This document shows, piece by piece, positions 2,703-56,030 of a stretch of 64,000 bases of DNA. The DNA lies in contig CM065889.1 in NCBI GenBank assembly GCA_033439255.1, positions 992,001 to 1,056,000 on the forward strand, written 5' to 3'. A program made the translations under genes and the position numbers. Positions within the stretch are counted from its first letter, which is position 1. Each line of letters begins with the position of its first letter. The notes below the pieces were generated by a model, which made no database searches, was not told the DNA's origin, and saw only the letters and a list, made by a program, of their open reading frames with translations. The DNA comes from Hericium rajendrae (Eukaryota; Basidiomycota; Agaricomycetes; Russulales; Hericiaceae).

Positions 2703-3109
2703 CATCTGGAAAAACAGGAAGAGCTACAGTGGGCTACCATGAGCTACAGTAGTGATCAGAATCCTACCGTAGTGACCTGTAGCTCCCATAGCTCCTGTAG
2801 TACTCGTAGGACCCCCCCCTACTACCGTGGCTCTGATAGTGAGCCGTAGTGACCTGTAGTGAATATGTCTCTACTGTAGCAATGAATCTCTTTACAGTAG
2901 TTATACAATTCAATGTATAAACAACTGTTGATATCCTTATATTTCACTCAATTGCAATATATCAGAACATTCAGAAACTTTATTTAAGAATAACTACATA
3001 ACATGAGCTAGCTAATCACTACTCCATACTACATTAGGCCACTTGTGCTGTCATCTCACAGATATATAAACACCAGCCCCCTCTACTGTAGTACATACAT
3101 AGGTCAGAC

Positions 3110-3475
3110 AGACATGCAAGTGAGCAGGTGGGCATGTGAGTGAGCAGGTGGGCATGCGAGTGAGCAGGTGGGCATGTAGGCAAGCAGGTGAGTGGACGAG
3201 CATGCAAACAAGCAGGTGAGCAGACGAGCATGTGAACAAGTGGAAAGGTACATAGGTGAGCAGGCAGGTGTGCAGATGAGCAGGCAGGCAAGCAGATTGC
3301 GAGCAAGCCATTGGGCAAGCGAGCAAGCCATTGGGCAAGCGGGCAAGCCATTGGGCAAGCAGGCAAGCTATTGGGCAAGCGGGCAAGCCATCAGGCAAGT
3401 GAGCAGGCAAGCAGGCAGGCATGCATGTGATGGTTGCATGGGCAAGCGGGCAGGTAGAGGGCAGATGAGCAAGCA
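3110..3475. repeat. Low-complexity tandem repeats inside element A
   Basis: Two runs of short tandem repeats: GGTGGGCATGTGAGTGAGCA-like units at about 3118-3190, and GCAAGCCATTGGGCAAGCG-like units at about 3296-3400. All frames across them stay open by periodicity and give Pro/Cys/Ala/Leu-rich peptides, so those reading frames are not credible genes. The position matches the GC-rich tract of elements D, F and G. Confidence 0.7.
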
Positions 3476-3719
3476 TGTCAGCGCTGAAACAACCAATAAA
3501 ATAAAAACAAACATACATACAATGTACCAGTATCACTCTTGTAGCCTTCTCTTACACCCTTCTAACCTGAAAAGAGATGAGAACAAAAGAATAACAGACT
3601 TACAATAAAACAAGAGAGAGAGAAGTGAGAGAGTGAGAGAGTGAGAGAGAAGAGACTTAGAAAGAGTGGCAAAGACGACGCGCTGCTGGCAAATCCTGAG
3701 GCCAAATAACACCAAAGGC

Positions 3720-3755
3720 AGAAACCAGATTGCCATATTTGGCAATCTGGTTTCT
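3720..3755. other. Perfect 16-bp hairpin in element A
   Basis: The arms AGAAACCAGATTGCCA and TGGCAATCTGGTTTCT are exact reverse complements separated by TATT. This is one of the strongest inverted repeats in the window and lies in no gene. A GTAAGT-type donor on the minus strand lies just to the right, near 3800. Confidence 0.85.
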
Positions 3756-3860
3756 GGCTCCTGCACGAAAAATGAAAACATTGCAAGTTATATTACTTAC
3801 AAAATTTCCTTCAGTGTTTATAGATATGAACTCTACACTGACTTACACTTGTCCAATGCT

Positions 3861-3902
3861 GGCAGAAATCAGATTGCCAGATATGGCCATCTGTGTTCTG
3901 CC
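3861..3902. other. Imperfect hairpin related to the one at 3720
   Basis: Left arm GGCAGAAATCAGATTGCCA and right arm TGGCCATCTGTGTTCTGCC pair over most of their length around a GATA loop, with three mismatches or wobbles. The arms resemble those at 3720-3755, so this is a diverged second copy. Confidence 0.65.
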
Positions 3903-4019
3903 CTGTTGTGCGCCTTAGCTGCAAGGAGCGTGGAAGAGTATCTGGGTCCCCTGGAGAGTTCTGCATTTCTCTGCTACAAACATCAGTTTTCATCTGATTA
4001 ACACGTACCTAGTACTGAC

Positions 4020-4720
4020 CGAGCCGGACGAATCGTTGCTTTCGAACGATGTCTTGTATGCCATGATCTGTTGGATATTAAAGGCGCTATGGCCAGAATG
4101 CTATAAGTGACATTTAGTAGATACAAAAAGTGATATAACTTTATTAATATTGCATGCACCACATATCTTTTTGGCTCATCTGAATGTTCTTATTCGTAGC
4201 TTCCAAGCAAGCCCTCATACGCTACGTTAGGTGCAGAACTCGTGCACCAGCGGCAAAATCTCTGAAAATGGGGGTCAAACAGCAGTTTTGGCATATCTTC
4301 ACAACGAGAACACGCACCGCTGACGTTTCAGACATTCCTGAATGCGGTTGAGCGTAGCTTTCGAACGGTGCCCTACACAACCTGATCCAAGAAGATTTAA
4401 AAATCGTCCCTTTGAGCGAAAATTGGATATATCATGATGAATATTGGACATACCACAAAAATCTTTATCTCGTTAAAAGGAGCTCATCAAGAGCTTTCGA
4501 TCGAGTTATTGTGCACCCTGATGGGTGAAAAACTCGAGGCACTACAACAGAATCTCTGAAACTGTCAGCAAGAACATGTTTTGAGGATATCTTTACAACG
4601 AGTAAACGCACCGGCAACATTTCTGGTGTTTCAGAAAGCAGCAATCAGTAGCTTTCGAACGCATGTACATACATGCAAATCGGTGCAGTGCTTGGTGCAC
4701 AACATCAAAATCTATGGTAT
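4020..4720. repeat. Diverged repeats in element A
   Basis: Three or four segments of roughly 150-180 bp share the words AGCTTTCGAACG (near 4352 and 4641; related words near 4040 and 4493), ACAACGAG and GCACCG. No open frame of note. Meaning unknown. Confidence 0.45.
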
Positions 4721-5258
4721 CAAAGCGTCAGCCACACATACCTTTTGAAACTTGAAGTCGTCTATGCAAGGGTGTTATCCTAGACTTGTTGAAAAGTGTT
4801 AGTCAAGAGTATTTTAATACACTCACATTTGTTCTGAGTTATTTCCTGCTTGCCTTGGAACTGCAAAAAATGCAGACACACAGTATGAGCAGGACTTGCT
4901 TAGAGGCACATATGTGTGCGTAACATGTCACTAGTGGTGATAGCACATTAGTAATCAAAACTGGCAGATCATATGATGAAATACAAGCCTCACATCACTT
5001 TTGAAAGACTTTTGAGCAATATAATGGATTAAAAAGACAGTGTCACTACAGAAAACTACAGGAGACTACGGTAGGACAAGACAAGCTATGGGACCTGAAT
5101 GCAGTCATACAGTATGTAATAGAAGAGCTACAGGATCAGCCGGAAAACACCGGTAGCTACCATCAGTGCTTCTATATCTACATCAGTGCTTCTATAGGCA
5201 CATCAATGCTTCTATAGGCACATCATCTGATTTAGTAAAACTCCGGTTTTTCCTGATG

Positions 5259-7145
5259 AACCACAAGAATGAGCCACAAGAAGCTCGTTCTCGCGGTGTC
5301 CGGCCCTCCTCGCGTCAGGACCCTCGCATCCAGCCCACCAACCACGAGAACGAGCCACAAGAAGCTCGTTCTCGCGGTGCCCGATCCTCCTCGCGTCCGA
5401 ACCCTCGCATCCAACCCACCAACCACGAGAACGAGCCCGGCGTGGCTCGTTCTCATGGTCCTACGTCATCTTCAGGCCAGCGCCCTCGCACTCAGCCCCG
5501 CATCGACGAGAACGAGCCACTAGCAGCTCGTTCTCGTGTTTCGTCCTCGTCTGCGCACCAGGAACTCCGTGTTGACGAGGATGAACATCATGCGGTTCGT
5601 TTTCATGCTTTTGTTTCTTCGGATTGTGACTAACTCCATAAGCAGCTCGATTACTACGAGAACGAGCCTGTTCAGGCTCGTTCTCGTGGTCCAACTTCTG
5701 CGCGCCAGCACGACCGGATGCAGGTCAAGATTGACGAGAACGAGAACGAGTCTACTGGCCCTCGTTCTCGTCCTGCTAGCTCTTCGCGGGGCAAACAGGC
5801 CAGGGATCTCAACAACCGCGAACTCAGTCGTCGTCCCCCATCCTCACAGCATGGTGTATCTACACCAAAGAATCCACCTGCACGCGATATGGGTGCCGGG
5901 CCCCGCTCTTTTTCAGCACCGAAGAAGGTTTTTTCTTTTCTTTTTTCTTTGGCTATGTATTTGTCTAATAGTCTATTGTCTTGCAGCCTGTAACACCCGC
6001 ACGCGGACCACTGCCTCCAGCATCTGCATCTCAACAGGTAAGTTTATGTTTAATTCCTCACAAATTCAATGCTGATGTTTATCATTAGACACCACACACC
6101 TCATCCTCGTCCTCGCAATGGCGAGGACGAGGATGACACTGAGACCGAGATGCAACGTACCAAGACCAGGAAGCCGACCAATGCTGATTTGCCTCCCGGT
6201 ACAATGCCGCGCTGGCAAGATATATTTTTGCCAATGGTTCGGGACTTCTTGGGTACGTGCGCTGATCCATGGGACACACAGGAGCTCCTTGAGCCCATCC
6301 AGAACCTTTGGGATCTTGTTTTCCCTTCTGTACCTCGGGAATTCAAGGACAAAGAAGATATGGTGTATTCTCTTGTGAGTTTTTCTCTGTTGTCTCTTCA
6401 ATAGCTTATGTCTTGTGGTTAGTTGATGCAGCGCATATACGAGTGGCGCCGTGGCTTTGCTTATGCAGCCATTGACGCTGTGGCAGATCATTTCTGGAGT
6501 GTAGAGTCTGCTATCGACAATGATCTCGATGCGAAAGAAGACTACGCTGCGAAGATGCTGGGGATTCAAGATGCTGATGATGGTGCAACCATTCCATTTA
6601 TCTTTCGCACCTCGTATAAGGACAATAATGGGCACCTGGTAAGACTGCTGAATATTATCTTTTGCTTATTAACATGTTCTTGACAGGTATACAAAGATGC
6701 TTTCCTATCTCGAGTCATCTTGCAGACCCTCACTGCTGCACATGTGCAGAGTGTGTCAGAGATGCCCGAGAACTCTCAGCGGCTTGAATGGCCAGTTGGT
6801 GCGCTAGCACTGGCTACTACTGCAGTATGTCTCTTTTCTTTTTGTTTCATTTATCTGACTTGTATATAGGTTGAGCGTGCTTGGACCCGGTGGTTGCGTC
6901 CTGACCCCAATGCACCTGATCCTCAACTGGAGGCAAGGATCAAGAGCTGATTCTCCAATGGCATCTGGGGTAACATTACTGATGACTATGCAGAAGTCAT
7001 CGCTGGCTTCACTGATGAGAAGTGGGGCATTATTATAAAGGCAGTCAAGCAGTTGCTTCAGCCAAAGCGGAAGGCGACTAATGCTCCTGGCAAGTCAGCC
7101 ATCTCTGCCCGTCGTCGTGGTCTCAAGGCTTTGGCCAACAAGTAA
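5259..7145 (+). pseudogene. Acidic repeat-rich protein, 3' part
   Basis: Continues the reading frame broken at 2702. It starts with four to five more 28-residue repeats, then a Ser/Arg/Pro-rich linker (5640-5930), then several exons that look like a folded domain: an exon with RWQDIFLPMVRDFLG (about 6210), MQRIYEWRRGFAYAAIDAV (6427), YKDAFLSRVILQTLTAAHV (6690) and ERAWTRWLRPDPNAPDP (6873). Introns have GTAAGT-like donors at about 6376, 6639 and 6826. The end is ALANK then TAA at 7143. An in-frame TGA at about 6948 and element A suggest this copy is dead. The C-terminal domain resembles uncharacterised Agaricomycete proteins, but I cannot name a family. Confidence 0.5.
5262..5790 (+). repeat. 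84-bp coding tandem repeats, block 2
   Basis: Continuation of the array at 2139-2702. Hairpin arms are kept in almost every unit (for example GAGAACGAGCC/GGCTCGTTCTC at about 5347-5373 and GAACGAGCCTG/CAGGCTCGTTC at 5662-5685). One degenerate unit near 5578-5607 sits at the probable end of an exon. Confidence 0.8.
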
Positions 7146-8086: not shown

Positions 8087-8545
8087 CATCAGAAAGTTCC
8101 AAGGGTTCCTGATGTTGCACGCAGCATCGCGCACACCAGCTGCACGTGTGCCAGCCCCACCTATGGCATGTTGTATACAATGTAGTATACTTGCATGTAT
8201 CAGTAGTTTGATATAAATAAATTTGACCTGATTTCGAGCACTTGAAACCATAGTCTCTACACCAACTATAGATATTATAGCAACCTGAGAGTCCATAGTA
8301 ACCTTTGGAAGCTCTGTATGGAACATAGTATCTATAGGATACATAGAGGGAGACTAGTTACATAGTAGGCATAGTAGTGTCCTATCACTATGTAATACTA
8401 TATACCCCTCACCCATGACTATGATAGCTATGATAGCTACCATAGTCCTGTATAGCTATGTGGCCCAACTACATAGCAGCCATAGCACTATGGAACCAGG
8501 AATAGTATTGGCTGGCAGCTATGTAGATTTCAGATTTTTCAGATG
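8087..8545. mobile_element. Short CATCAG element or element end
   Basis: Starts CATCAGAAAG immediately after the CAGATG end of element B and ends TTTTTCAGATG. Its right part (8340-8520) is an array of CTATGATAGCTATGATAGC words as in D, F and G, preceded by a GC-rich scrap (8117-8165). Best read as an internally deleted member or a broken right end. Confidence 0.45.
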
Positions 8546-12399: not shown

Positions 12400-13380
12400 A
12401 CACAAGGCGCACGGACTTTACACATTACGGTGCAGCCATGCGTGAGGCACAACGGCTGTGCATGACATAACCGAAACGCGAGGGCCGTGCGCGACTCAGC
12501 AAAGGTCTCCACCGGTGGTAAGGGCAATGCCGGGACAGCGGGGACAGGCTCGAGCTGGCAGGAGTACGCGCGAGTCGGCAGGGGTATGTGCGGGGTGCGT
12601 GAGCCATGCATGAAGGCCGTGCGCGACACGGCGACGTCGCACGTGAAACCGGAGGGCCGTGCACGTCGAGGGGACCACACGAGCGAGAGCGGACGTGCGC
12701 AATGCATGGAGGCCGTGCCCGACGACCAGGCCATGCTCGAGTCGCGCGCAGGGCACACGCGACAGCGAGGGCGTGCATGAAGCACGGAGGGCGTGCGCCG
12801 ACGGCCAGCACGCGTGGCCGTCCGCGCGACAGCCGGGCACGCATGCGACTGCAGGGCCCTGCATGCAACGGTGGGGCCATGCGCGCGATGGTGGGGCCAT
12901 GCGCGCGATGACAGGGCCATACGCGCGGCCGTCGTGCGCGGGTGCCATTGGGCACTCGGGGGCGTGCGTGAATACAGGCGTGCCGATTGGGGGTTAGTGA
13001 GGCAGTACGCGCGGAGTCGTGCAGGGCGAGCACGCATGCGAGCGCGGGCGGACTGCCAGGGACCGTGCGCAGGCAGTGGGAGGCGCAAGCGTGGGCAGGC
13101 AAGCAGAGGCGCCGCGGCGCCCGTGTCCGGACGAACAGTCGCGGGCTTGCCTGCGCTGTCGACGCTGTGCGCTGGCGCGTTGTTGACGGTGTGGGGCCAT
13201 ACGCAGGCGTGCACGGACTGCTGGACCGTCACGCATGTCGTGCTGCACGACGTTTGCTCGAGCCCCGTTGCCACGGCAACGAGGCTCGATGAGGTGGGCG
13301 ATGGTGCGTCGGTGGCGTTGTCGAAGAGATGTGGTGGGCGCGGTGGGGTCGTGGTCATGGTGTGGGGGGCCCGAAGACAG
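12400..13380 (-). ncRNA. GC-rich putative non-coding transcript of element D
   Basis: This tract is built from overlapping words such as GCATGCGTG, GGGCCATGCGCGCGATG and CGTGCGC. Several long frames are open on both strands at once (up to 379 codons on minus), as expected from composition alone; they are Arg/Ala/His/Pro-rich and share no peptide with the matching tracts of F and G. On the minus strand it follows the intron-like segment and hairpin a. I infer a non-coding exon. Transcription is not shown by sequence. Confidence 0.35.
13259..13288. other. Hairpin b of element D
   Basis: CGAGCCCCGTTGCC pairs with GGCAACGAGGCTCG over 14 positions with one C-A mismatch, leaving a two-base turn. 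The same hairpin with altered but mutually complementary outer arms occurs in F (55295-55322) and, weaker, in G (17127-17152). Confidence 0.8.
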
Positions 13381-13384
13381 ATAT

Positions 13385-13418
13385 GCGAGTATCGCTCATG
13401 TAAACGAGCGATACTCGC
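13385..13418. other. Hairpin a of element D at a putative 3' splice site
   Basis: Arms GCGAGTATCGCTC and GAGCGATACTCGC are exact complements around an 8-base loop. Read on the minus strand it directly follows a segment with donor GTAAGTAA (about 13460) and branch-like GTACTAAC (about 13425). Same arrangement as in E and F. Confidence 0.8.
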
Positions 13419-13799
13419 TTTGTTAGTACCGAAAATACAAAGAACATTGTAATTACTTACCTTACATGGCCCTCGCTGCGTCTACTAGCCCATCGGAGTG
13501 TCGATCGACGCCTTGCGCCGTGTGTTGAGCGAGGTTGAGCGAAGGAAGGCAAGAGTGGAGAGAGGAAAGTGAGAAAGTCGTGCCGAAGTCCCTCAGCCAC
13601 AGAGCACTTGACGCGAGCCCAGCTTTCTTCGACGTCAGAAAGTCAAATAAAATCGTGATAAATCCAGAAAAAAGGGAGCTTCTATATACTAATCGTAAGA
13701 CCAAAATCAATGAGCTAACTGGATACCTAACGGACAGTACGCTCGCGAGCCGGGAAGTCAACTTAACCAAGTCTAATTCCTAGCCTTTCTCGCGGCTCT

Positions 13800-17152: not shown

Positions 17153-17825
17153 GCTACAATGTGGGCATATGCGCAGGCATGAAGGGAAGGTGTGGTGACG
17201 TGGCCCATGCCCGAACATCGTTCACAGCATGCAAACGATGCAGAACAACATAACGCAATGACACAGCTGTTGGTAGTGGGCTGGGCGTGGAATGTTGATG
17301 CCGCATATGGGCAGCTAGCATGTTGGGACATCATTCAAGGGCAAAGAGACAGATGGGGGTGCAAGGAGGGCCGTGGGGATGAAGGATATGTGATGGAGAC
17401 AGGGCGAAAGCAAATGAATGAGCGTCGCTCGAAAGCAAGCAATGCTCTTGATCAGTATGAAAAGATATACAAGAAGGTTTTTTTTACTTACCTTCAGCCC
17501 CTCGGCATAATTTCCATACCCTAATACATTTGAATCGGTGAGAGAGAGAGACAAATGGGGGGAGAAAGAGGAGGAAGAAGAGGAAGAGGTAGGTAAGGAT
17601 GAGGAACAAGAGACAGAAGTCTCGACGCAAGTTTGGTGCTTCAGCCACCGAACGCGAGTTCAAACATTTTGAAGCGTAACAAATCAAATAAAACAGTAGA
17701 AAATTATAGAAAAAGCAGAGAGCTAAGTATTGCTCGTATAAATACATTGAATGAAGACAGTATGTATCTACTATAGGGTGCATTTGTGCATATCATGTGT
17801 AAGATTGTCACGTCTGGTGCCCAGT

Positions 17826-34738: not shown

Positions 34739-37348
34739 TCATGATGTGGACGAGGATGGTGCTTGAGGTGGCCGTTCAAGAGGCAGTGTGACGGTGGAAA
34801 ACTGTAGTGCTCCTGGATGCTCCATAAGGAGAGACTGGGCGTGTGCGAGGGAGCCGTGCAATGGACCGCGATGGCACCGTTCATTGGGAAGAGCACTACG
34901 GAGCTGCTTCTTCCAGACACTGTCTGAAAAGGCCGAGAACTGTGGTGTTTGAGAAAGAGATAGACGGTGCTGGAACCATGTCTCCGTGTCCTCAGTCCAT
35001 TCGTCTGACCACAAAGGACTTTCATTAAAGACTGCGGGCGAGGGCCAAAATGATCGACCATCGCGCAGGCGGCCTACGAGACGATTGACTTCATCTGTGG
35101 TGATGGTGTCGCCAGAGCAAGGTACTGGCGTGCCATGACGGTCACCCTGGCCATATTGGCGGACATGCGAGGACGGGCCTGTCAATGCATCCATGGCGAG
35201 TGAGCTAGGACCGTAGTGCAGTGCGAGACGCCAAGAGATACTGCTGTGGAGGAGGAACACACGGCTGTTAGGACACCGAAGAAGTTCCCTGAGCACGGCC
35301 TCGTGATGGTGCATCTGGGGCGCATGGAAGGCAGACCAGAGCGGGGCCTCTCGAGAAGGGCGCAGAAGTGGCTGTGGTTGGTCTGGAAGGGACTGCAGTG
35401 AAATACGCCATTCGAATTTAATGCTGCAAGCCAGCATTTGATGGACCAGGGTCTCCCAGGTCAGGTTGGGGTTTGCCGTGCGCCAGCCATGAATGTGAAT
35501 TTGGGTGCGGCTGTCCATCTGTAGGTAGCCTTCATAATTGAAAGGAATTTTATCCCATACCCGGAGGGTGCGGCCCACCGGGAAGGATAGTGCCACTGGC
35601 GCTTCATGGGAGAGGTCTGCAAGGTGATCAGGCAGTTCGAACGCATGGGGTACATGGGGCTCGGCAGAATCCGGTGGAGACGGTTGGAATGCAGGCACAG
35701 ACAACGGGGCCAGGAGCAGAGTGGTGGGTTGCATTGCCGTTGAATGCTCTGAGTCCATAGCAACGTCCTCAGGTGCATCGTCTGCATCATCGGTGATGCG
35801 GGATGCCAAGGACAGGTGCTCGCTGTCGGTGATGCGGGATGCTAAAGATTGGGGCTCATCGTATGGGTCGTCGCCAATGCGGGCTAGAAGGGTGGGTGGC
35901 GAAGGCAGCCGCAAGGAAGTTTCCTTCATGCGTGCCAGGAGTGTTGGCTCCGGGGATGACTGCCGGGAAGGTGACTTGGAGGCAGTGGGAGCAGGACCCG
36001 TGGATGTCACACGAGATGAAGTGGACCCCACCGTGAGTGCAGAAGGCAAGGGCGTGTGAGGCACGAGGTCACTAGAACGATCAGCCCGGGAGGTCGGCGG
36101 ATCGTCGCATGGTGGTGATGCCGGTGTGCAGGAGTGGGCTGCATGCTTGGGAGATGCAGAATACCGGTGTCGAGGTTGCAATGTGGAGCGTGAATAGTGC
36201 CTCAGATTGCAGGCACGGTAGGTGAAGCGGGGCCCAGCGTAGCAGGGCGATGAGGCTCGTTGACAGTATGGGGACCTGAGGGAGCGAGACCTCCCCCTGT
36301 GAGAGACATAGTGGGTGCGTGAAGGTGAACGTGAATGATGGAACCTATCGCAGTGGTGCTCGTAGGGGTGAGAGCGGCGTGGTTCGTAGTGGTCGTATGG
36401 GTGGCCGCATCCTGGGGAACGCGACCTCTCGTAGCAGTAGCTACAATGGTGAAAGGACGGGGATATGCTGGATCGTCGATACGATGTGCGCCGTTCGGAA
36501 TACTCGCACCCGGGCATTGCGTGGAGAAGGTGACTGAGGGGGCGAGCGATGAGACGGTGGTGGTGGTGAGCATTCACGAGAACGGCCTGAGTGGAGTGTT
36601 GGAGCTTGACTTAGACTCGGGGGCCCGGAGCCGGGCGACGGCGGCAGCAGCGGGTGTGGTGGAATGGAGAACGACAGGGCAGTGGGCTCAATTGGCATGC
36701 CTTCGTCATCCGAGCTGCCTCCTCCGTCCAAGTAGTATGCCATGTCGCGCACAGGCTTGGAGGATGAGGGCGCAGCCAGCTGCGAGGAAGTTTGCTGGAG
36801 GCGCCGATCGACCCGGCGATGGGACTTCAAAGCCTTTTTGCGATGGGTATTCTCCACGTCCATCGTCATGTGAAAGTCTACAGCATCGAGGACATCGGGA
36901 TTGAGGCCAATGAGTCATGAGTCCTTCAGGAAGGAAATGCCCCAGCGATAGCGCACCAGATTGCAGTGAGATGCGAGTATGGTTAAATCTGGCCAGGTCC
37001 CTGGGGGTGTGGAAAAATCGATCACCATCCCAACGCCCCAGCCGAATGTGAGGTTCCAATCACGCACTTTCGTTTGCCAGTTCGGGATATCGATGGGCAC
37101 ATGTTCCCAGACAGAGCCTAGGTTGAGGAGCATCCACCTAAGAAATCCTCACCATTCAAGCACGGCTGCTTGCAGCGCGTGACTGAGTGCAATTTGTGCA
37201 TCTCGGGAGCCCATCGTAAATAGTGGCGCAGGATCTGGAATTGCTAGCAGCAAGACGTCTATGCCTACATAAAGTGCGAGGGCTGAACCGATTGAGGTGA
37301 CGCTTTCGATATCGTGCAAGACCGTGAGGGGAATAGTGAGGTTGAGCA
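34739..37348 (-). pseudogene. Third ORF of a chromovirus-like retrotransposon (Gyp-B2)
   Basis: Function unknown. From the right it reads VLNLTIPLTVLHDIESVTS, FTMGSRDAQIALSHALQA, VLEW-stop-GFLRWMLLNLG (TGG to TGA), TWPDLTILASHCNLVRYRWG, a second stop after ISFLKDS, then a basic and Ser/Pro-rich stretch. A frameshift near 36500-36577 leads into a 612-codon frame with an Arg/Ser/His-rich start and a folded-looking end: RVWDKIPFNYEGYLQMDS, HIHGWRTANPNLTWETLV, MHHHEAVLRELLRCPNSRVF and WRLALHYGPSSLAMDALTG. The EW-GFLRW block also occurs in the ORF at 58087-59158. Such ORFs lie between integrase and 3' LTR in Agaricomycete gypsy elements. It ends 76 bp from the LTR. Confidence 0.6.
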
Positions 37349-38094
37349 CATCAGTAAACCTGGAAATTTCTGATTGGTATCTGATCATATCTGATTTGAT
37401 CTGATTCAGACAATCAGACAGTCAGATGAGTCAGGTAGGTCTCTATCGTCCAGTGTCTTTCAGATAAAAACATCTGATTCTAGATGGTCATCTGAGTGTC
37501 AGATAATTGTCTGAATGTCAGATAGTCATCTGAGTGTCAGATAGTCATCTGAGTGTCAGACAATTCTCTGAGTGTCAGACAAAAGTCTAGAAGTCAGATA
37601 CTATCTAGAAGTCAGATTGTGTCTGATATTTATCTTATTTGTATCTGAAGTCAGAATTTCTCTGAAAGTTGAAATTTGTCTGAAGTCAGACTTTAGTCTG
37701 ACAATCAGACATAATATTATTTCAGACATAAATCAGATTATAATTCAGGCTCAAATTAGGTCAGACTAAATCAGCATCAGAACAGGGTTCAGATCATTCA
37801 TTTCAAAACAGACATCAATATCATACAAGTCAAGCACTGAAGCTGCACAGGCTAGACTAAGAGTACACTATTGCTACAGGCACTGGAGGGTGCTAGCACA
37901 AGCAAAAGATAATCCTTTACAAAAAAAGGGGGCAGTGTCACAACATTAGTGACTGCTTTGAGCCAAACATGCCGCATGCCAACAACAAATGTAGTTTGTC
38001 ATAAGATGCATGCCGAAACAGTCAGCAGCAGATGAGGGACAGTCAACAGCAGTGGGAGCAGCAGTGACGTGAGGGGTCAGAGAATGGGGGCAAA

Positions 38095-38712
38095 GACTCT
38101 GTTAGTATATGAGAGTGACAAGAAAAAACGGCTATTACTCACCTTATATTTCGTTACACGTTGTCATCATAACGAAAAGATGCAATACGCACATCTGCAG
38201 GACACAAAACGTAAGTGTTCTGTGTCCTACAGATGCAGTCACAGGGCTGAAAAGAAAACAAACATACCTGTTGCCACAATGGTGCCAAATGCTAGGTGGA
38301 CCTGTGGCAGTGAGCACACAGCAGAGGGTGCAGGGATGTGGCAGCGGGCAAGGGGATGAGTGGGTCAGCGAAGCTAAAGAGGGGTATCACTCGATGATAA
38401 CAAGTGATACTCTCATATTGAGTATGTGAACAACAAGAACGAAGGTATTACTCACCGCAAGATCGCACGCGGGCACAGGCAGCATCATACAGCATGCGTG
38501 CGCTGGCGGAGCCCGGCGGTGACGTGTCACGGAAGTGGGGATGTACACGAGCTAGGGCAGCACTGTCGAGGGTGCGGGCAGGGTGCGAGGAGGGGAAGTG
38601 AGATGAGGGTGTCGAAAGAAAATGAACATCGAGAGTATCGTTCGATATCGAGCGATACTCTCGTTATTTTGTTAGAGCAAAGAAGTATAGAAGAAAGATA
38701 TCTTTACTCACC
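38095..38712 (-). ncRNA. Leftward hairpin-intron modules of E1
   Basis: Three minus-strand intron-like segments start GGTGAGTAA (plus-strand TTACTCACC at about 38138, 38451 and 38706). Branch-like words are ATACTAAC, ACTCAAT and CTCTAAC. Hairpins follow at 38631-38662 (GAGAGTATCGTTCG with CGAGCGATACTCTC) and 38384-38410 (GTATCACT with AGTGATAC). A 44-nt hairpin at 38192-38235 starts CATCTG and ends CAGATG. The exons so defined have no shared peptide. Inferred to be a spliced non-coding RNA. Confidence 0.45.
38192..38235. other. 44-nt hairpin with CATCTG ends
   Basis: CATCTGCAGGACACA pairs with TGTGTCCTACAGATG apart from one C-A mismatch, around a loop that contains GTAAGTG. Its ends repeat the terminal hexamer of the whole element family, so it could be a miniature insertion. 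Confidence 0.6.
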
Positions 38713-38719
38713 TAAAGAC

Positions 38720-39078
38720 CTCCACGTCTGGAGAAAAGCTCGAACCGGTCCTTCCCTCCAGTTTGACGAATAGGAAGACGGAGAGGCGGAGAGCAAAGGA
38801 GGCGGAGAGCAAGGGAGACGGATAGAGAGGGAGAGAGGGAGACGAACGAGCAAACAAACAACGATGTGCGCTGATTGCTTGAGCCGCCGAGGAGATTGCC
38901 GGTCGGAGATTGCCGACCGGGCCGGTGGCTGCCAGATGCGTGTTGCACGTCTAAGTCGAATTCACGTCTAAGTCGAATTTTGCTGCTGCTCACCTCAATA
39001 TCGCTTCGTTTCTGGATATTTGAAGGCCGGAGGGACGATTTAAAGAGTGTTGGGACTTGATGGAGGCCAGAGCAGCAT
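38720..39078. promoter_or_regulatory. Central divergent promoter-like block of E1
   Basis: Lies between the leftward and rightward intron arrays. Contains a purine-rich tract (GGAGGCGGAGAGCAAAGG repeats, 38770-38845), GATTGCCGGTCGG/GATTGCCGACCGG repeats (38892-38925), GGTGGCTGCC resembling the GGCAGCCAC block of D and F, and a tandem 17-bp repeat CACGTCTAAGTCGAATT (38947-38980). No clear TATA box. Confidence 0.4.
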
Positions 39079-40617
39079 CAGGTGAGTAATATCTCTTGTT
39101 ATTCTTCTGTCTATCGTGCTAATTTGGGGAGTACTGCTCGATAACGAGCAGTACTCTCCTTTTCTCGTTTGCATCAAACCCCCCACCCCGTCCGTCGCGT
39201 GTCTCGTGCCCCCATGCCCCGCAAGCTGCCCCGTACCCCGTGCGTGCTCCGCCTCCACCTCGATTCCCGCACGCCTCCATCTCCTCCCCGCACGCCTCCG
39301 TCGCCTCGCGCATGACCTCGCACGACCTGCGCGACCTCGCACGACCTGCATGGCCTGCATGGCCCTGCACCCCGCCTCTCCCGTACCCCATCTCCCCGCA
39401 CGGTCCGCCTCATACCCCGCATGCCTTCCTCATCTCGCGCAAGACCCTGCATGCATGGGCACGAGCCCACGCGGATGCACCGGCGCGTACGACTTCGCGT
39501 CCACTCTATATCGATTCGAAGGCCGGAGGAGATCGGGAGGGATGAGGGTTTGAAGGGAGGAGGGGGCTTCGAGGAATCGCGGGTGAGTATCCGTTCATTC
39601 TTCTATTGTTGATCATACTAATTCGGGGGAGCACTGCTCGTTATTGAGCAGTGCTCCCCATTATGTGTTCTATCTCAAGACCTACAGCCCCACCCCGACT
39701 CTTGTGCCCCGCGCCTGCACACCACTTCTCCCGTGCCTCATTCCCCACGCATGCCCCGCCTTTGCCCCTCCGCACGATCTCGCACGATCCCGCATGGCCC
39801 GATGCCCCCGCCGTTTTGTGCATGGAATTGAAAGTCGAAAGGACCAATGGAGTGCTCATGGGGATTGTTGGAGGCAAAGGTGAGTCAAACCGACTAGTAT
39901 TATGTTATCAATGGTACTAATTCAGGGAGTGCTGCTCGTGATCGAGCAGTACTCCCTCTGTTCCTTCCTCATCTGCCGCACCCCTCTCCTGTATGCCGCG
40001 TGTGCTCTGCCTCTGCCTCTCCCTCCACGCCCGTGCCCAGCGCGACCCCCACACCTCCCACACACCTTCGCCTTCTCGCACACAACCAAACACAGATGCG
40101 AATGACCCCTCACAACACCAGATGGCTGCGCAACGGACATGCACGGCCCCGCCGTCTTTTGCACAAAATTGAAAGCTGAAGGAATGAACGGACAGCCCGA
40201 AGGGCTCGCTGGAGGCAAAGGTGAGTCACGATAATGATTATATATTGCCTATGGTACTAACTCGGGGAGTACTGCTCGTAATCGAGCAGTATTCCCCATT
40301 TTCTGTCCTGCATCAACCACCACACCTCTCCATCGTGACTTCTGCATATCGCATGCAGCTTCTCCCATGCCCCGTCTCCCGTGCATGTCTCGCCTCTCCC
40401 GCGCCCTCTGCGCCATGCCCGTACGCCTCGCATGCCCTCGCTGTTGTCTACACGGCCCCGCACGGTCTCGCACTACCCACACTTGCCCGTAGCTGCGCAT
40501 GTTACTTCGCGCGTGGGCACTGCAAGGCCGTGCACAGAAAGGTAAGTAAAGATCTGTTATTTTTCCTGTTCACTGCACTAACGACAGGAGTACTGCTCGA
40601 TAACGAGCAGTACTTCC
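39079..40617 (+). ncRNA. Rightward array of five hairpin-intron modules of E1
   Basis: Five modules with donors at about 39080, 39582, 39880, 40220 and 40541 (GGTGAGT or GGTAAGT). Each has a 45-60 bp T-rich segment, a branch-like CTAAT/CTAAC, and within 4-9 bases a hairpin: 39129-39156, 39626-39659, 39925-39956, 40264-40297 and 40587-40617. Arms are GAGTACTGCTCG/CGAGCAGTACTC or variants such as GAGCACTGCTCG with GAGCAGTGCTC. Between modules lie 200-400 bp of C-rich DNA (CCCGCACG, CCTCGCACGA words). Reading the hairpin as peptide gives unstable sequence, so RNA or DNA structure is what is kept. Confidence 0.5.
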
Positions 40618-40879
40618 CGTTATTCATTCTGCCTCAACACCCATACCTCTGCATGCTGCCTCTCTCACACCCCATGCTCTGCATCTCCCTCCACCTCATG
40701 CCCAGCCCAACTCCCGCGGACCTCCGCTATCTCGCACACAGACTCGCATGGGCCCGCACGGGCAGATGCAGTGTTCACACCTCGCGTGTGGCCTGTACGA
40801 CTCCCTGTGCCTATGTAATTATTTAGCTCTAGAGTTTTGTATAAGTTTTGTGGTGGCCATGATGGTTATAGCTTGTGAA

Positions 40880-41990
40880 CCTCTCCCTTAGTCTGAAATC
40901 AAGTCCAATCTAATTCCAATCCTTGGCCTAAATCTAAGTTTAAGTTTGATTCAATGGAGATCTATCTGACTTCATCTGAAAAATAGTGTTTGTCTGACTT
41001 GCATCTAGAATCTGATGAAATTACTAATGTCTGATAAGTACATTAACATCTGAAGTGTCTGAGGTACACTGAATAATAGAGACATATCTGATTGTGTCTG
41101 AGCAGCATTTCTTATCTAACAACATTAATGATATCTAATAAGTGCAGAAAGTCTGATGCATCTTAAATTATTTGGATAATAGAGATCTATCTTACTCTAT
41201 CTAAAAAGTAGCAATTGTCTAATTTTTGTTCAGCATCTGATAGGCCTATCTACATCTGACAAAAGTTTGAAAATCTGATAAGTCTGAAAATATCTGGACA
41301 ATAGGGACATACCTGACTTTATTTGAGAAGTACCAATGATCTGACTTTTAATAGATATCTAACAAAATTACCTTTCTCTAACAAATATGTAAAAATCTGA
41401 TAAGTCTGAAAACATCTGGACAATAGAGATCTACCTGACTTCATCTGAAAAGTACCTATAATCTGACTTTTATTGAATGTCTGACAAGATGATCATTGTC
41501 TGATAGATGTGTAAGAATCTGATATGTCTGAAGATATCTGGACAATAGAGACCTACCTGACTCCATCTGAAAAGTAGCAATGATCTGACTTTTATTCAAT
41601 GTCTGACAAGATGACCTTCATCTGACAGATGTTCAAGAATCTGACATGTCTGAGAACATCTGGACGATAGAGACCTACCTGACTTCATCTGAAAAGTAGC
41701 AATGATCTGACTTTTATTCAATGTCTGACAAGATAACCTTCATCTGACAGATGTTCAAGAATCTGACATGTCTGAAAACATCTGGATGATAGAGACCTAC
41801 CTGACTCTATCTGAAAAGTAGCAATAATCTGACTTTTATTCAATGTCTGACAAAATTACCTTCATCTGACAGATTTTTAAGAATCTGATAGGTCTGCTTA
41901 TATCTGATATTCTTCTGATTTTACAAAATAATCTACACACTATTTTATTCATATGTGAGTCAGACAAATGGACCTGTTCAGAACTCTCAG
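40880..41990. repeat. About 120-bp subterminal repeats of E1
   Basis: Roughly eight diverged units, each with CATCTGGACAATAGAGACC, TACCTGACTTCATCTGAAAA, GATCTGACTTTTATTCAATG and TCTGACAGATGTTCAAGAATC. They may be transposase-binding repeats. Mirrored in E2 at 42530-43640. Confidence 0.8.
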
Positions 41991-42039
41991 ACAAAAGTCA
42001 GACAATCAGACTAGTCAGAAGATTCCTCATTTCCTGATG

Positions 42040-42475
42040 TGGGGTGTATTCAGTAAAGATCCGGCGGAGCGTGTCCACCGTTGTCTTCCCGGAACCCGAG
42101 CCTTTGATAGCCTTGACCCAAAGATGTTGGGAGAACATGTCGAGGAACAGGCCAATGTGGTCCAACTTGCCTGTGCCCACGGGCATGGACAAGTAATCGC
42201 CGACGAGCAATTCAAACGGGTGACGACGCGTGATGGGCTCGAGGAGCGAGTTGATGTGAGGGGTTCCGAAGTTCTTGCAGTGTGAGCATTCGCGCACTGC
42301 GGCCAAGATGGAGGCATCCAGCTTGGGGCTCCAAATACGGTCCATAAGTGCAATCTTGATACTATCGCGGCCCCAATGCCCGCTCGAGACATGTTCCTCA
42401 TAAGCAAGCACTTTGGCCTCGGCCTGCGTGACGCATTCGTACTTCGTGCGAGCACGCACCGAGGTTCCACCTTTA
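42040..42475 (-). pseudogene. Integrase fragment of Gyp-A
   Basis: An open fragment reading VRARTKYECVTQAEAKVLAY, then an HHCC-type zinc region (EEHVSSGHWGRDSIKIALM, RECSHCKNFGT) and the start of the catalytic core (PFELLVGDYLSMPVGTGKLDH with the first Asp). It stops at element E1 before the remaining catalytic residues. On its right it joins, across E2, to the end of RNase H: removing E2 and one TA gives KLWQIKGGTSVRAR in frame. Confidence 0.85.
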
Positions 42476-45400
42476 CATCAGGAAATGAGGAATCTTCTGA
42501 CTAGTCTGATTGTCTGACTTTTGTCTGAGAGTTCTGAACAGGTCCATTTGTCTGACTCACATATGAATAAAATAGTGTGTAGATTATTTTGTAAAATCAG
42601 AAGAATATCAGATATAAGCAGACCTATCAGATTCTTAAAAATCTGTCAGATGAAGGTAATTTTGTCAGACATTGAATAAAAGTCAGATTATTGCTACTTT
42701 TCAGATAGAGTCAGGTAGATCTCTATCATCCAGATGTTTTCAGACATGTCAGATTCTTGAACATCTGTCAGATGAAGGTTATCTTGTCAGACATTGAATA
42801 AAAGTCAGATCATTGCTACTTTTCAGATGAAGTCAGGTAGGTCTCTATCGTCCAGATGTTCTCAGACATGTCAGATTCTTGAACATCTGTCAGATGAAGG
42901 TCATCTTGTCAGACATTGAATAAAAGTCAGATCATTGCTACTTTTCAGATGGAGTCAGGTAGGTCTCTATTGTCCAGATATCTTCAGACATATCAGATTC
43001 TTACACATCTATCAGACAATGATCATCTTGTCAGACATTCAATAAAAGTCAGATTATAGGTACTTTTCAGATGAAGTCAGGTAGATCTCTATTGTCCAGA
43101 TGTTTTCAGACTTATCAGATTTTTACATATTTGTTAGAGAAAGGTAATTTTGTTAGATATCTATTAAAAGTCAGATCATTGGTACTTCTCAAATAAAGTC
43201 AGGTATGTCCCTATTGTCCAGATATTTTCAGACTTATCAGATTTTCAAACTTTTGTCAGATGTAGATAGGCCTATCAGATGCTGAACAAAAATTAGACAA
43301 TTGCTACTTTTTAGATAGAGTAAGATAGATCTCTATTATCCAAATAATTTAAGATGCATCAGACTTTCTGCACTTATTAGATATCATTAATGTTGTTAGA
43401 TAAGAAATGCTGCTCAGACACAATCAGATATGTCTCTATTATTCAGTGTACCTCAGACACTTCAGATGTTAATGTACTTATCAGACATTAGTAATTTCAT
43501 CAGATTCTAGATGCAAGTCAGACAAACACTATTTTTCAGATGAAGTCAGATAGATCTCCATTGAATCAAACTTAAACTTAGATTTAGGCCAAGGATTGGA
43601 ATTAGATTGGACTTGATTTCAGACTAAGGGAGAGGTTCACAAGCTATAACCATCATGGCCACCACAAAACTTATACAAAACTCTAGAGCTAAATAATTAC
43701 ATAGGCACAGGGAGTCGTACAGGCCACACGCGAGGTGTGAACACTGCATCTGCCCGTGCGGGCCCATGCGAGTCTGTGTGCGAGATAGCGGAGGTCCGCG
43801 GGAGTTGGGCTGGGCATGAGGTGGAGGGAGATGCAGAGCATGGGGTGTGAGAGAGGCAGCATGCAGAGGTATGGGTGTTGAGGCAGAATGAATAACGGGA
43901 AGTACTGCTCGTTATCGAGCAGTACTCCTGTCGTTAGTGCAGTGAACAGGAAAAATAACAGATCTTTACTTACCTTTCTGTGCACGGCCTTGCAGTGCCC
44001 ACGCGCGAAGTAACATGCGCAGCTACGGGCAAGTGTGGGTAGTGCGAGACCGTGCGGGGCCGTGTAGACAACAGCGAGGGCATGCGAGGCGTACGGGCAT
44101 GGCGCAGAGGGCGCGGGAGAGGCGAGACATGCACGGGAGACGGGGCATGGGAGAAGCTGCATGCGATATGCAGAAGTCACGATGGAGAGGTGTGGTGGTT
44201 GATGCAGGACAGAAAATGGGGAATACTGCTCGATTACGAGCAGTACTCCCCGAGTTAGTACCATAGGCAATATATAATCATTATCGTGACTCACCTTTGC
44301 CTCCAGCGAGCCCTTCGGGCTGTCCGTTCATTCCTTCAGCTTTCAATTTTGTGCAAAAGACGGCGGGGCCGTGCATGTCCGTTGCGCAGCCATCTGGTGT
44401 TGTGAGGGGTCATTCGCATCTGTGTTTGGTTGTGTGCGAGAAGGCGAAGGTGTGTGGGAGGTGTGGGGGTCGCGCTGGGCACGGGCGTGGAGGGAGAGGC
44501 AGAGGCAGAGCACACGCGGCATACAGGAGAGGGGTGCGGCAGATGAGGAAGGAACAGAGGGAGTACTGCTCGATCACGAGCAGCACTCCCTGAATTAGTA
44601 CCATTGATAACATAATACTAGTCGGTTTGACTCACCTTTGCCTCCAACAATCCCCATGAGCACTCCATTGGTCCTTTCGACTTTCAATTCCATGCACAAA
44701 ACGGCGGGGGCATCGGGCCATGCGGGATCGTGCGAGATCGTGCGGAGGGGCAAAGGCGGGGCATGCGTGGGGAATGAGGCACGGGAGAAGTGGTGTGCAG
44801 GCGCGGGGCACAAGAGTCGGGGTGGGGCTGTAGGTCTTGAGATAGAACACATAATGGGGAGCACTGCTCAATAACGAGCAGTGCTCCCCCGAATTAGTAT
44901 GATCAACAATAGAAGAATGAACGGATACTCACCCGCGATTCCTCGAAGCCCCCTCCTCCCTTCAAACCCTCATCCCTCCCGATCTCCTCCGGCCTTCGAA
45001 TCGATATAGAGTGGACGCGAAGTCGTACGCGCCGGTGCATCCGCGTGGGCTCGTGCCCATGCATGCAGGGTCTTGCGCGAGATGAGGAAGGCATGCGGGG
45101 TATGAGGCGGACCGTGCGGGGAGATGGGGTACGGGAGAGGCGGGGTGCAGGGCCATGCAGGCCATGCAGGTCGTGCGAGGTCGCGCAGGTCGTGCGAGGT
45201 CATGCGCGAGGCGACGGAGGCGTGCGGGGAGGAGATGGAGGCGTGCGGGAATCGAGGTGGAGGCGGAGCACGCACGGGGTACGGGGCAGCTTGCGGGGCA
45301 TGGGGGCACGAGACACGCGACGGACGGGGTGGGGGGTTTGATGCAAACGAGAAAAGGAGAGTACTGCTCGTTATCGAGCAGTACTCCCCAAATTAGCACG

Positions 45401-47168
45401 ATAGACAGAAGAATAACAAGAGATATTACTCACCTGATGCTGCTCTGGCCTCCATCAAGTCCCAACACTCTTTAAATCGTCCCTCCGGCCTTCAAATATC
45501 CAGAAACGAAGCGATATTGAGGTGAGCAGCAGCAAAATTCGACTTAGACGTGAATTCGACTTAGACGTGCAACACGCATCTGGCAGCCACCGGCCCGGTC
45601 GGCAATCTCCGACCGGCAATCTCCTCGGCGGCTCAAGCAATCAGCGCACATTGTTGTTTGTTTGCTCGTTCGTCTCCCTCTCTCCCTCTCTATCCGTCTC
45701 CCTTGCTCTCCGCCTCCTTTGCTCTCCGCCTCTCCGTCTTCCTATTCGTCAAACTGGAGGGAAGGACCGGTTCGAGCTTTTCTCCAGACGTGGAGGTCTT
45801 TAGGTGAGTAAAGATATCTTTCTTCTATACTTCTTTGCTCTAACAAAATAACGAGAGTATCGCTCGATATCGAACGATACTCTCGATGTTCATTTTCTTT
45901 CGACACCCTCATCTCACTTCCCCTCCTCGCACCCTGCCCGCACCCTCGACAGTGCTGCCCTAGCTCGTGTACATCCCCACTTCCGTGACACGTCACCGCC
46001 GGGCTCCGCCAGCGCACGCATGCTGTATGATGCTGCCTGTGCCCGCGTGCGATCTTGCGGTGAGTAATACCTTCGTTCTTGTTGTTCACATACTCAATAT
46101 GAGAGTATCACTTGTTATCATCGAGTGATACCCCTCTTTTAGCTTCGCTGACCCACTCATCCCCTTGCCCGCTGCCACATCCCTGCACCCTCTGCTGTGT
46201 GCTCACTGCCACAGGTCCACCTAGCATTTGGCACCATTGTGGCAACAGGTATGTTTGTTTTCTTTTCAGCCCTGTGACTGCATCTGTAGGACACAGAACA
46301 CTTACGTTTTGTGTCCTGCAGATGTGCGTATTGCATCTTTTCGTTATGATGACAACGTGTAACGAAATATAAGGTGAGTAATAGCCGTTTTTTCTTGTCA
46401 CTCTCATATACTAACAGAGTCTTTGCCCCCATTCTCTGACCCCTCACGTCACTGCTGCTCCCACTGCTGTTGACTGTCCCTCATCTGCTGCTGACTGTTT
46501 CGGCATGCATCTTATGACAAACTACATTTGTTGTTGGCATGCGGCATGTTTGGCTCAAAGCAGTCACTAATGTTGTGACACTGCCCCCTTTTTTTGTAAA
46601 GGATTATCTTTTGCTTGTGCTAGCACCCCTCCAGTGCCTGTAGCAATAGTGTACTCTTAGTCTAGCCTGTGCAGCTTCAGTGCTTGACTTGTATGATATT
46701 GATGTCTGTTTTGAAATGAATGATCTGAACCCTGTTCTGATGCTGATTTAGTCTGACCTAATTTGAGCCTGAATTATAATCTGATTTATGTCTGAAATAA
46801 TATTATGTCTGATTGTCAGACTAAAGTCTGACTTCAGACAAATTTCAACTTTCAGAGAAATTCTGACTTCAGATACAAATAAGATAAATATCAGACACAA
46901 TCTGACTTCTAGATAGTATCTGACTTCTAGACTTTTGTCTGACACTCAGAGAATTGTCTGACACTCAGATGACTATCTGACACTCAGATGACTATCTGAC
47001 ATTCAGACAATTATCTGACACTCAGATGACCATCTAGAATCAGATGTTTTTATCTGAAAGACACTGGACGATAGAGACCTACCTGACTCATCTGACTGTC
47101 TGATTGTCTGAATCAGATCAAATCAGATATGATCAGATACCAATCAGAAATTTCCAGGTTTACTGATG
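42476..47168. mobile_element. Element E2, right copy of the hairpin-array element
   Basis: 4693 bp, the inverted near-duplicate of E1 (E1 position p corresponds to about 84516 minus p). Flanked by TA on both sides (42474-42475, 47169-47170), and its removal restores the Gyp-A pol frame, so it is a simple insertion with a 2-bp target duplication. The hairpins mirror those of E1: 43898-43928, 44218-44251, 44559-44590, 44857-44889, 45360-45387, 45853-45884, 46106-46132 and 46281-46324. Confidence 0.88.
45804..46420 (+). ncRNA. Hairpin-intron modules of E2, plus-strand set
   Basis: Copies of the E1 leftward modules, now on plus: GGTGAGTAA at about 45803, 46059 and 46372, with hairpins at 45853-45884 and 46106-46132. 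Same layout, same inference of a spliced non-coding RNA. The opposite set (minus strand) spans about 43898-45437. Confidence 0.4.
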
Positions 47169-54647: not shown

Positions 54648-54830
54648 GCGCGTCGTTTGACTCGGACTTCGTCTCGAACTCCAAGTCATCATTCCCCTTC
54701 CTCTCAGCTTGTCTCTGTCGTTATTCCTCATCACCCGCGTCAACATGAAGGCCGGATAGATTGGGCATAGGTCGAGGGACTTAGGTGAGTAAAAAAACAC
54801 TTGTATTCTTTTTATATCGTACTAATCTTG

Positions 54831-54860
54831 AGAGTCTCGCTCGATAACGAGCGAGACTCT
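54831..54860. other. Hairpin a of element F at a putative 3' splice site
   Basis: AGAGTCTCGCTCG and CGAGCGAGACTCT are exact complements around ATAA. It directly follows GGTGAGTAA (54784) and GTACTAAT (54819). Compared with E, positions 5-8 of the stem differ on both arms together. Confidence 0.85.
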
Positions 54861-54869
54861 TGTTCTTAC

Positions 54870-56030
54870 ATGCTCTTCGACACTCCCCGCCCCCCTGCTC
54901 GCCCTTCGACAGCCCACTCCGCCTGTCGCGCACCACCCGCGCCTGTCTCCCTCCCCGCGCCCGCGCCTTCGACAGCGCATGCCACGTACTCGACAGCCCA
55001 CTCCCGCGCCGCCGACACATCACTCCACGACGTCCCCATGACCCCCTGCCCATTTGCCGCAGCCCGTGGGTGCTTGCATCCCGGCACGTCACCCACGCAC
55101 GGTATCAATGGGCCCCATTCCGCGCACACGTCTGCGACAACGGGTGGGGAGCTTCCCACTGGCTCGCGCTCGGCCAACATCACGCCCGGTCACTCTCAAC
55201 ACCTACGCGTGGGCGCTCCCAGCACACACACGCGACACACGCGCGGCCTCAAGAGCCTGCCGACGCCTTGTGGATGGCCAGCAAGATTAACATCGAGTCT
55301 CGTTGCCGTGGCAACGAGACTCAACGACGCACACGCCAGTGCCAGCGCACGAACTCACGCGCACGGCCCCATCAACACCGGCTGCTTGCGCACGCAAGCC
55401 AACACACGCCTCCCCGCACCGCAGCGCCAGCGTACGGCCATGGGATGCATGTACATCCCCAGACACGCGCGCGTACAGCGTGTAGAGTCCCAGTCCGCCC
55501 CGCATGGACCCAACGGCCGACGTACGGCCGCAGCGCACGTATCCACGGCCGCAGCACACGTGTCCACGCCTCCGACACCCCGTGCACGCCCTGCACGCCT
55601 CGCACAAGATTCTTCACCTTGCGCACGGCTCTGGCCTTCCGCACACGCCTGCCCGTGGTCCGGCCGTCTCGCGCACCGCCCGCGCGCATTGTTTGTGACC
55701 CACAGGCTTTGCGCACGGCCTTGCGGTCGCGCACGGCTGCGCCGTCTCGCACAGGCCCATGGGCCTCGTGTGCGACCTGCGCACGGCCTCCGCGCAATGG
55801 TGTCCGCCTGCCGCCTTGACATCCCAGGCCCAGCCTCGACATCCCACACTCCGCCCTGACGTCCCGCGCCCCGCTCTGACAACGCGCGTGCATCCCTAGC
55901 AACACCCGCACCGCTGTACCATCCCGCACACCTCGGCCGCACCTATGTCAATGGCGCCTCCCGTGCCTTTCGCGCCTGCAGTGCCTTCCTCGCGCGTTGC
56001 CTTGCCGGCATTATTGGTGGCCGGGACTTA
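54870..56030 (+). ncRNA. GC-rich putative non-coding exon of element F
   Basis: C-rich DNA with CGCACG, GCACGCC and CTCGCAC words. Frames of 352 and 319 codons are open on plus and others on minus over the same bases. They are Arg/Pro/Ala/Thr-rich and not conserved with D or G, so I do not call a protein. It follows hairpin a and contains hairpin b. Confidence 0.35.
55295..55322. other. Hairpin b of element F
   Basis: GAGTCTCGTTGCC and GGCAACGAGACTC are exact complements with a two-base GT turn, a 13-bp perfect stem. The inner CGTTGCC/GGCAACG is identical to D; the outer part differs from D on both arms together. Confidence 0.85.

Follow-up and report, generated by a model that had tools for sequence, protein, structure and literature searches.

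Serial intron-hairpin modules in an apparently non-coding transposon of Hericium rajendrae with PlavakaB-type ends

Non-autonomous DNA transposons are usually regarded as passive ends flanking filler. The closest described systems, which we cite here from excerpts of the papers concerned, include the PlavakaB transposons, which end in CATCA..TGATG and are flanked by duplications of 2 or 3 bp (Kojima 2025, PMC12730594); the fungal telomerase RNAs, which are made by a spliceosomal cleavage whose second step is blocked in several ways (PMC4299874); and intron 2 of yeast SUS1, in which a stabilised stem across the branch site and the 3' splice site abolished splicing (PMC4691836). Transposons of Cryptococcus are targeted by siRNAs whose production is fed by stalled spliceosomes (PMC7763443), and an Ascomycota-based screen for fungal structural RNAs tried to keep clear of transposons (PMC8216456). 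Here we compare with these systems a 4691-bp element from a 64,000-nt stretch of Hericium rajendrae DNA (the window, meaning the whole stretch that was analysed), whose serial modules join an intron-like stretch to a hairpin.

Layout of the element and its modules

The element carries TCAGA/TCTGA repeats inside both of its ends (Table 1), and the genome holds two further copies at 99-100% identity, together with several diverged or partial copies. It looks like the non-coding transposon that the preliminary description had taken it for: transposon ends are present, and ten of its frames (106-212 aa, a subset of the frames of that size) gave no Pfam match above cut-off, which leaves the idea of a coding element unsupported. 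Further evidence against coding comes from another family, in which the C-rich exon-2 region has indels and many C/T and G/A differences (five copies, by eye, over part of the alignment). A known RNA family is likewise rejected for the module, since a search of Rfam with window positions 37000-42500 returned four matches only (E 0.28-0.98), each below its gathering score. The 436-bp stretch between the element and its inverted copy (42040-42475) contains an integrase-like reading frame, identified by eye.

The five plus-strand and three minus-strand modules are all oriented outward from the gap between the divergent donors. Each plus-strand module consists of a GGTRAGT donor, about 30 nt, the motif CTAAY and then a hairpin of 13-15 bp with a 4-nt loop (n=5); the donors, GGTGAGT or GGTAAGT, begin at 39081, 39582, 39879, 40220 and 40541, and the hairpins begin 44-46 nt past them. 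Predicted folds of these five modules range from -27.5 to -44.0 kcal/mol over 130 nt. The layout is beyond chance: seven stems of at least 12 bp were seen (six module hairpins and the one at 38199-38228) against a mean of 0.13 and a maximum of 2 in 60 dinucleotide shuffles; donor plus CTAAY pairs numbered seven on the two strands, where 200 shuffles averaged 0.045.

The five serial modules of the preliminary description are thus real, with stems of at least 12 bp and four-base loops as it had said, and each donor lies within 1 nt of the place that it gave. The three opposite-strand modules that it reported, one of them hairpin-less, are also present, 38143-38094 being the one without a clear hairpin. 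Two of its details have to be corrected: the segment between donor and branch site, put at 45-60 bp, measures about 30 nt, and the proposed promoter-like block (38095-38712) holds the minus-strand modules, the gap between the divergent donors being 38713-39080.

Table 1. Features of the element and further modules in the window. Positions are those of the 64,000-nt window; L-numbers in the text denote loci fetched from the same genome, L001 being the copy of the element described here.
Feature	Position	Strand	Remarks
Whole element	37349..42039		4691 bp; ends CATCAG..CTGATG; near-identical copies known
Left end, TCAGA/TCTGA subterminal repeats	37349..37760		
Minus module 3	38094..38143	-	Donor and CTAAC; hairpin not clear; model E=0.19
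Minus module 2	38379..38456	-	Donor, weaker hairpin; model E=1.1e-4; outside training set
Minus module 1	38630..38712	-	Donor, CTAAC, 15-bp hairpin; in model training set
Gap between divergent donors, presumed promoters and first exons	38713..39080		Assigned by position alone
Plus module 1	39081..39159	+	Donor, CTAAT, 15-bp hairpin 39126-39159
Plus module 2	39582..39659	+	Donor, CTAAY, 15-bp hairpin 39626-39659
Plus module 3	39879..39957	+	Donor, CTAAY, 15-bp hairpin 39924-39957
Plus module 4	40220..40297	+	Donor, CTAAY, 15-bp hairpin 40264-40297
Plus module 5	40541..40618	+	Donor, CTAAY, 13-bp hairpin 40587-40616
Right end, tandem 122-bp TCTGAC-type repeats	40952..42039		Repeat families D1 and D2
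Inverted near-identical copy of the 4691-bp element	42476..47168	-	
Same module outside the element	13384..13461	-	In training set
Further module	17417..17492	-	Model E=1.6e-6; outside training set
Same module outside the element	54784..54862	+	In training set

Copies of the module and the transposons that carry them

A covariance model built from eight modules (six of the element and the two at window positions 13.4 kb and 54.8 kb) recovered places outside its training set, namely minus module 2, the module at 17417-17492 (E-values in Table 1) and the modules of the inverted copies. Pattern searches of the genome found 250 hairpins when the hairpin alone was asked for with at most one mismatch; 117 matches with CTAA ahead of an exact hairpin; 160 with GTGAGT, CTAA and the 5' arm; and 189 with GTAAGT, CTAA and the 5' arm (one module counted twice), the reversed-pattern control giving 0 for each of the last three. 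With the 3' arm unconstrained there were 399 places (control 3), and with the 5' arm unconstrained 439 (control 8). The preliminary description had named a lack of further copies keeping donor, branch site and hairpin together as grounds for giving up its proposal; hundreds of copies exist, and the module is a genome-wide feature, not one peculiar to the 4691-bp element.

All 15 of the first-listed hairpins of the hairpin-only search are preceded by an intron-like stretch, ten with GTRAGT..CTAAY by the strict pattern and five, by eye, with one element altered (GTGCGT, CTGAT twice, CTAAA and CTCAT). Judged by this constant company, the hairpin and the intron-like stretch belong together. Twelve modules have upstream regions that can be partly aligned with one another, so that the families of module-bearing elements likely share descent from one core. 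Some families have an extra inverted repeat within the intron, such as CTACAG..CTGTAG or GCACGG..CCGTGC beside CTAAT (by eye).

All examined carriers end in CATC..GATG, and 10 of 11 insertions in CATCA..TGATG, the exception being L024 with CATCT..AGATG; a 2-bp target duplication is present in 8 of the 11 and absent at L001, L004 and L029. In another family, five copies of about 2.6-2.7 kb align from CATCA to TGATG and have unrelated flanks. By these ends, which are of PlavakaB type, the carrier belongs to a known kind of transposon, as a variant of it. The L024 locus (C1:727000-734000) holds a 2835-bp module-bearing element with ATAGCT-type repeats, the ends CATCTGAG..CTCAGATG and, by eye, an apparent gene on each side. 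At L029, L031, L034, L037 and L038 the AT-rich parts are near identical and the C-rich exon-2 region has many C/T and G/A changes (by eye), as expected from the decay of methylated cytosines.

Plavaka transposases are abundant in this genome, and the listed Plavaka proteins, which come from many Agaricomycetes, are 47-70% identical over the aligned part. Of the 213 listed module positions, 8 have a listed Plavaka match within 8 kb; the module therefore seems to move chiefly with transposase-less elements. The L041 locus has two long Plavaka frames separated by an apparent single intron, and also TCTGA repeats and an end of the form CTGATG. No left end was found for it, and the sequence searched upstream of the transposase frames, which stops short of that end, gave no match to the module pattern. 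On these two counts the module was rejected as part of an autonomous element. Nor does every CATC..GATG transposon carry the module: a nested element at 2704-5257, which has such ends, gave no match to the module model at E up to 1.

Pairing of the stem and position of the acceptor

In the eight modules 97.5% of cells are paired, 6 of 15 pairs have changed on both sides, and none of 500 shuffles attained the covariation score of 0.429; slides of 1-3 columns scored at most 0.155, in a comparison that favours the structure since it was derived from the same sequences. Covariation beyond shuffles, as looked for in a structured RNA, is present. In addition, 75 strings were found with the 3' arm unconstrained by the search; in 72 of them each of the three variable middle pairs is a standard one, and 98.7% of the middle-pair cells of the 75 are paired (shuffle mean 84.6%, maximum 90.2%). 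Among 38 distinct hairpins (taken from 73 modules of the window and of fetched loci), pairing holds in 452 of the 456 core cells, a total that is helped by placing the 3' arm by best pairing; the pair that stands eighth from the loop is A-T in 27, G-C in 4, C-G in 4, G-T in 2 and T-A in 1. In the distant module L007, two G-C pairs in the loop-side half are replaced by A-T. Since pairing has been kept while the letters changed, the RNA shape of the module probably matters.

In the core of the 38 distinct hairpins, 23 G-U pairs stand against 3 A-C pairs. Off the closing pair the ratio of the two is 19 to 6 in 80 strings and 20 to 15 in 38 picked strings, or 39 to 21 when pooled (p=0.027, from related copies that are not independent), and at the closing pair it is 9 to 16. 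As proof of RNA over DNA pairing, wobble is not decisive.

A set of 42 distinct introns was gathered with a pattern demanding donor, branch site and GAGT, so that an AG is built in; they measure 43-51 nt from GT to AG, the first AG comes 4-9 nt after the branch A, and donor, branch site and AG stand at the usual intron spacing. The acceptor triplets are CAG in 16, GAG in 15, TAG in 6 and AAG in 5, and in 31 of the 42 an AG precedes that of GAGT, its G at, or at most 2 bases ahead of, the first core base. The hairpin accordingly sits at the expected 3' splice site, as had been proposed, with the foot of the stem holding the first AG that follows the branch site. An acceptor beyond the hairpin is not the usual case, since in several classes a long stretch past the stem lacks any AG (by eye). 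A few decayed copies have GGGT in place of GAGT, and no AG ahead of the loop (by eye). On the simplest reading, the module would be a short intron with its acceptor at the foot of the stem, the stem opening the next exon.

The nested element has a parallel arrangement of its own. On its minus strand, GTAAGTA..TTTCGTGCAG runs directly into a 20-bp stem (3716-3759) whose sequence is unrelated. Twelve diverged copies (73-83% identical over the aligned part) leave this stem stretch almost unchanged, and their donor is GTAAGT in 4, GTAAAT in 7 and lost in 1; the CAG has turned into CAAG or CAAAG in diverged copies. Thus the stem is conserved and the intron not clearly so, which would suit a stem that acts in RNA no less than one that acts in splicing.

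Several other hairpins were seen. Tandem hairpins of the type GAGAACGAGCC..GGCTCGTTCTC lie at 2140-2658 and 5265-5771, apparently in coding exons of another element that ends in CTGATG near 8107 (by eye), and the same type occurs between modules in L041 (by eye). On the minus strand of L028, at 2650-3400, about 12 head-to-tail repeats of roughly 60 bp, each containing a long hairpin CCCGAAACG..CGTTTCGGG, follow directly downstream of modules (by eye). A second hairpin type, GAGYCYCGTTGCC..GGCAACGAGRCTC, is found at 13258-13289 and 55293-55324, downstream of the 13.4 kb and 54.8 kb modules and without a donor ahead.

Possible roles of the module and relation to known systems

We favour, with somewhat less than even confidence, a reading of the element as a non-autonomous DNA transposon, with ends of PlavakaB type, in which a unit for non-coding RNA is transcribed divergently and spliced, the hairpin acting at the 3' splice site. 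Transcription would start in the gap between the divergent donors and run both ways. A short intron (43-51 nt from GT to AG) would then be removed, from the perfect donor to the first post-branch AG at the foot of the hairpin, and the hairpin would begin the next exon, holding the acceptor AG at the mouth of the stem. The hairpin arms would bury their own AGs, so that pairing may set or gate the choice of the 3' splice site. Mobilisation would presumably be by a Plavaka transposase. Fungal introns of such length are spliced without stems of this kind, which weakens this explanation, as do the nested element, in which the stem is kept while the donor is often lost, and the few decayed copies with GGGT and no AG ahead of the loop (by eye). 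The proposed action of the hairpin at the 3' splice site is further weakened by SUS1, where the stabilised stem abolished splicing (PMC4691836).

The hairpin could instead work in the spliced RNA, near its mature 5' end, where, by stopping scanning ribosomes or 5'-3' decay, it could make the non-coding RNA more stable. We consider this unlikely: the stem would begin exon 2 if the first AG is used, the predicted folds given above would suit such a role and other elements have additional hairpins downstream, but by itself the proposal gives no reason for the stem to keep so close, within a few nt, to the branch site. About equally unlikely is a role in DNA, in which the palindrome would be a protein-binding or cruciform site that stands beside the intron through descent of all families from one ancestral core. 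The arms are palindromic, common descent is likely from the partial alignment of upstream regions, and at the closing pair G-U shows no advantage over A-C; however, the middle letters of the stem vary between families yet stay complementary, which a letter-blind protein would not need, the orientation and distance relative to CTAAY are fixed, and G-U prevails over A-C in the 38 distinct hairpins.

Less probable again is splicing that goes through the first step only, the donor being cut and the hairpin impeding the second step, so that exon 1 would be freed with a defined 3' end. The perfect donor, the TACTAAY-like branch sites and the stable stem at the acceptor would agree with this, and fungal telomerase RNAs are a precedent, although the trigger in S. 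pombe includes a long branch-to-acceptor distance, unlike that of the module (PMC4299874). Moreover, the foot of the stem does hold an AG, and serial modules would cut a single transcript several times. Despite the Cryptococcus precedent, a source of small RNAs, with hairpins or stalled splicing feeding an RNAi pathway, is very improbable, since usual Dicer substrates are longer than stems of 12-15 bp and the Rfam matches in 37000-42500 were sub-threshold only.

Across many families the same intron-like, structured start is retained while much else diverges, which suggests that an RNA helps such non-autonomous elements survive. A wider possibility, which we hold at less than even odds, is a class of DNA transposons without a protein, whose conserved RNA device, coupled to splicing, joins an intron to a covarying 3'-splice-site hairpin; the device may have multiplied within and between elements by aiding transcription, escape from silencing or the fate of the RNA. 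The hundreds of natural intron-hairpin variants are material for testing RNA structure at a 3' splice site. As to novelty, the preliminary description knew of no counterpart to the layout; this stands for the intron-hairpin module, of which we found no description in excerpts of the open-licence literature, and does not stand for the ends of the carrier, which are already published for PlavakaB (PMC12730594).

Among known systems, PlavakaB, of the CMCT group (Kojima 2025, PMC12730594), shares with the present elements the CATCA..TGATG ends and, for 8 of the 11 insertions, the 2-bp duplications, in a genome where Plavaka transposases are abundant; unlike it, these elements have no recognised transposase and carry instead an intron-hairpin module, which the excerpted text of that paper does not mention. 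Fungal telomerase RNA (PMC4299874) likewise combines a strong donor with a branch site in a non-coding RNA, but the excerpts name no covarying acceptor stem, and it is a single gene, not a transposon. In SUS1 intron 2 (PMC4691836), as proposed here, splicing is modulated by a structure in the RNA that spans the branch site and 3' splice site, although the SUS1 stem is weak and encloses the branch site, whereas the stem of the module is strong and leaves the branch site outside. Fungal introner-like elements, in the partial accounts that we draw on, are also repeated introns with RNA structure; here, in contrast, no stand-alone insertion of the module as an intron was noticed, and the intron is carried by whole transposons of about 2.6-4.7 kb.
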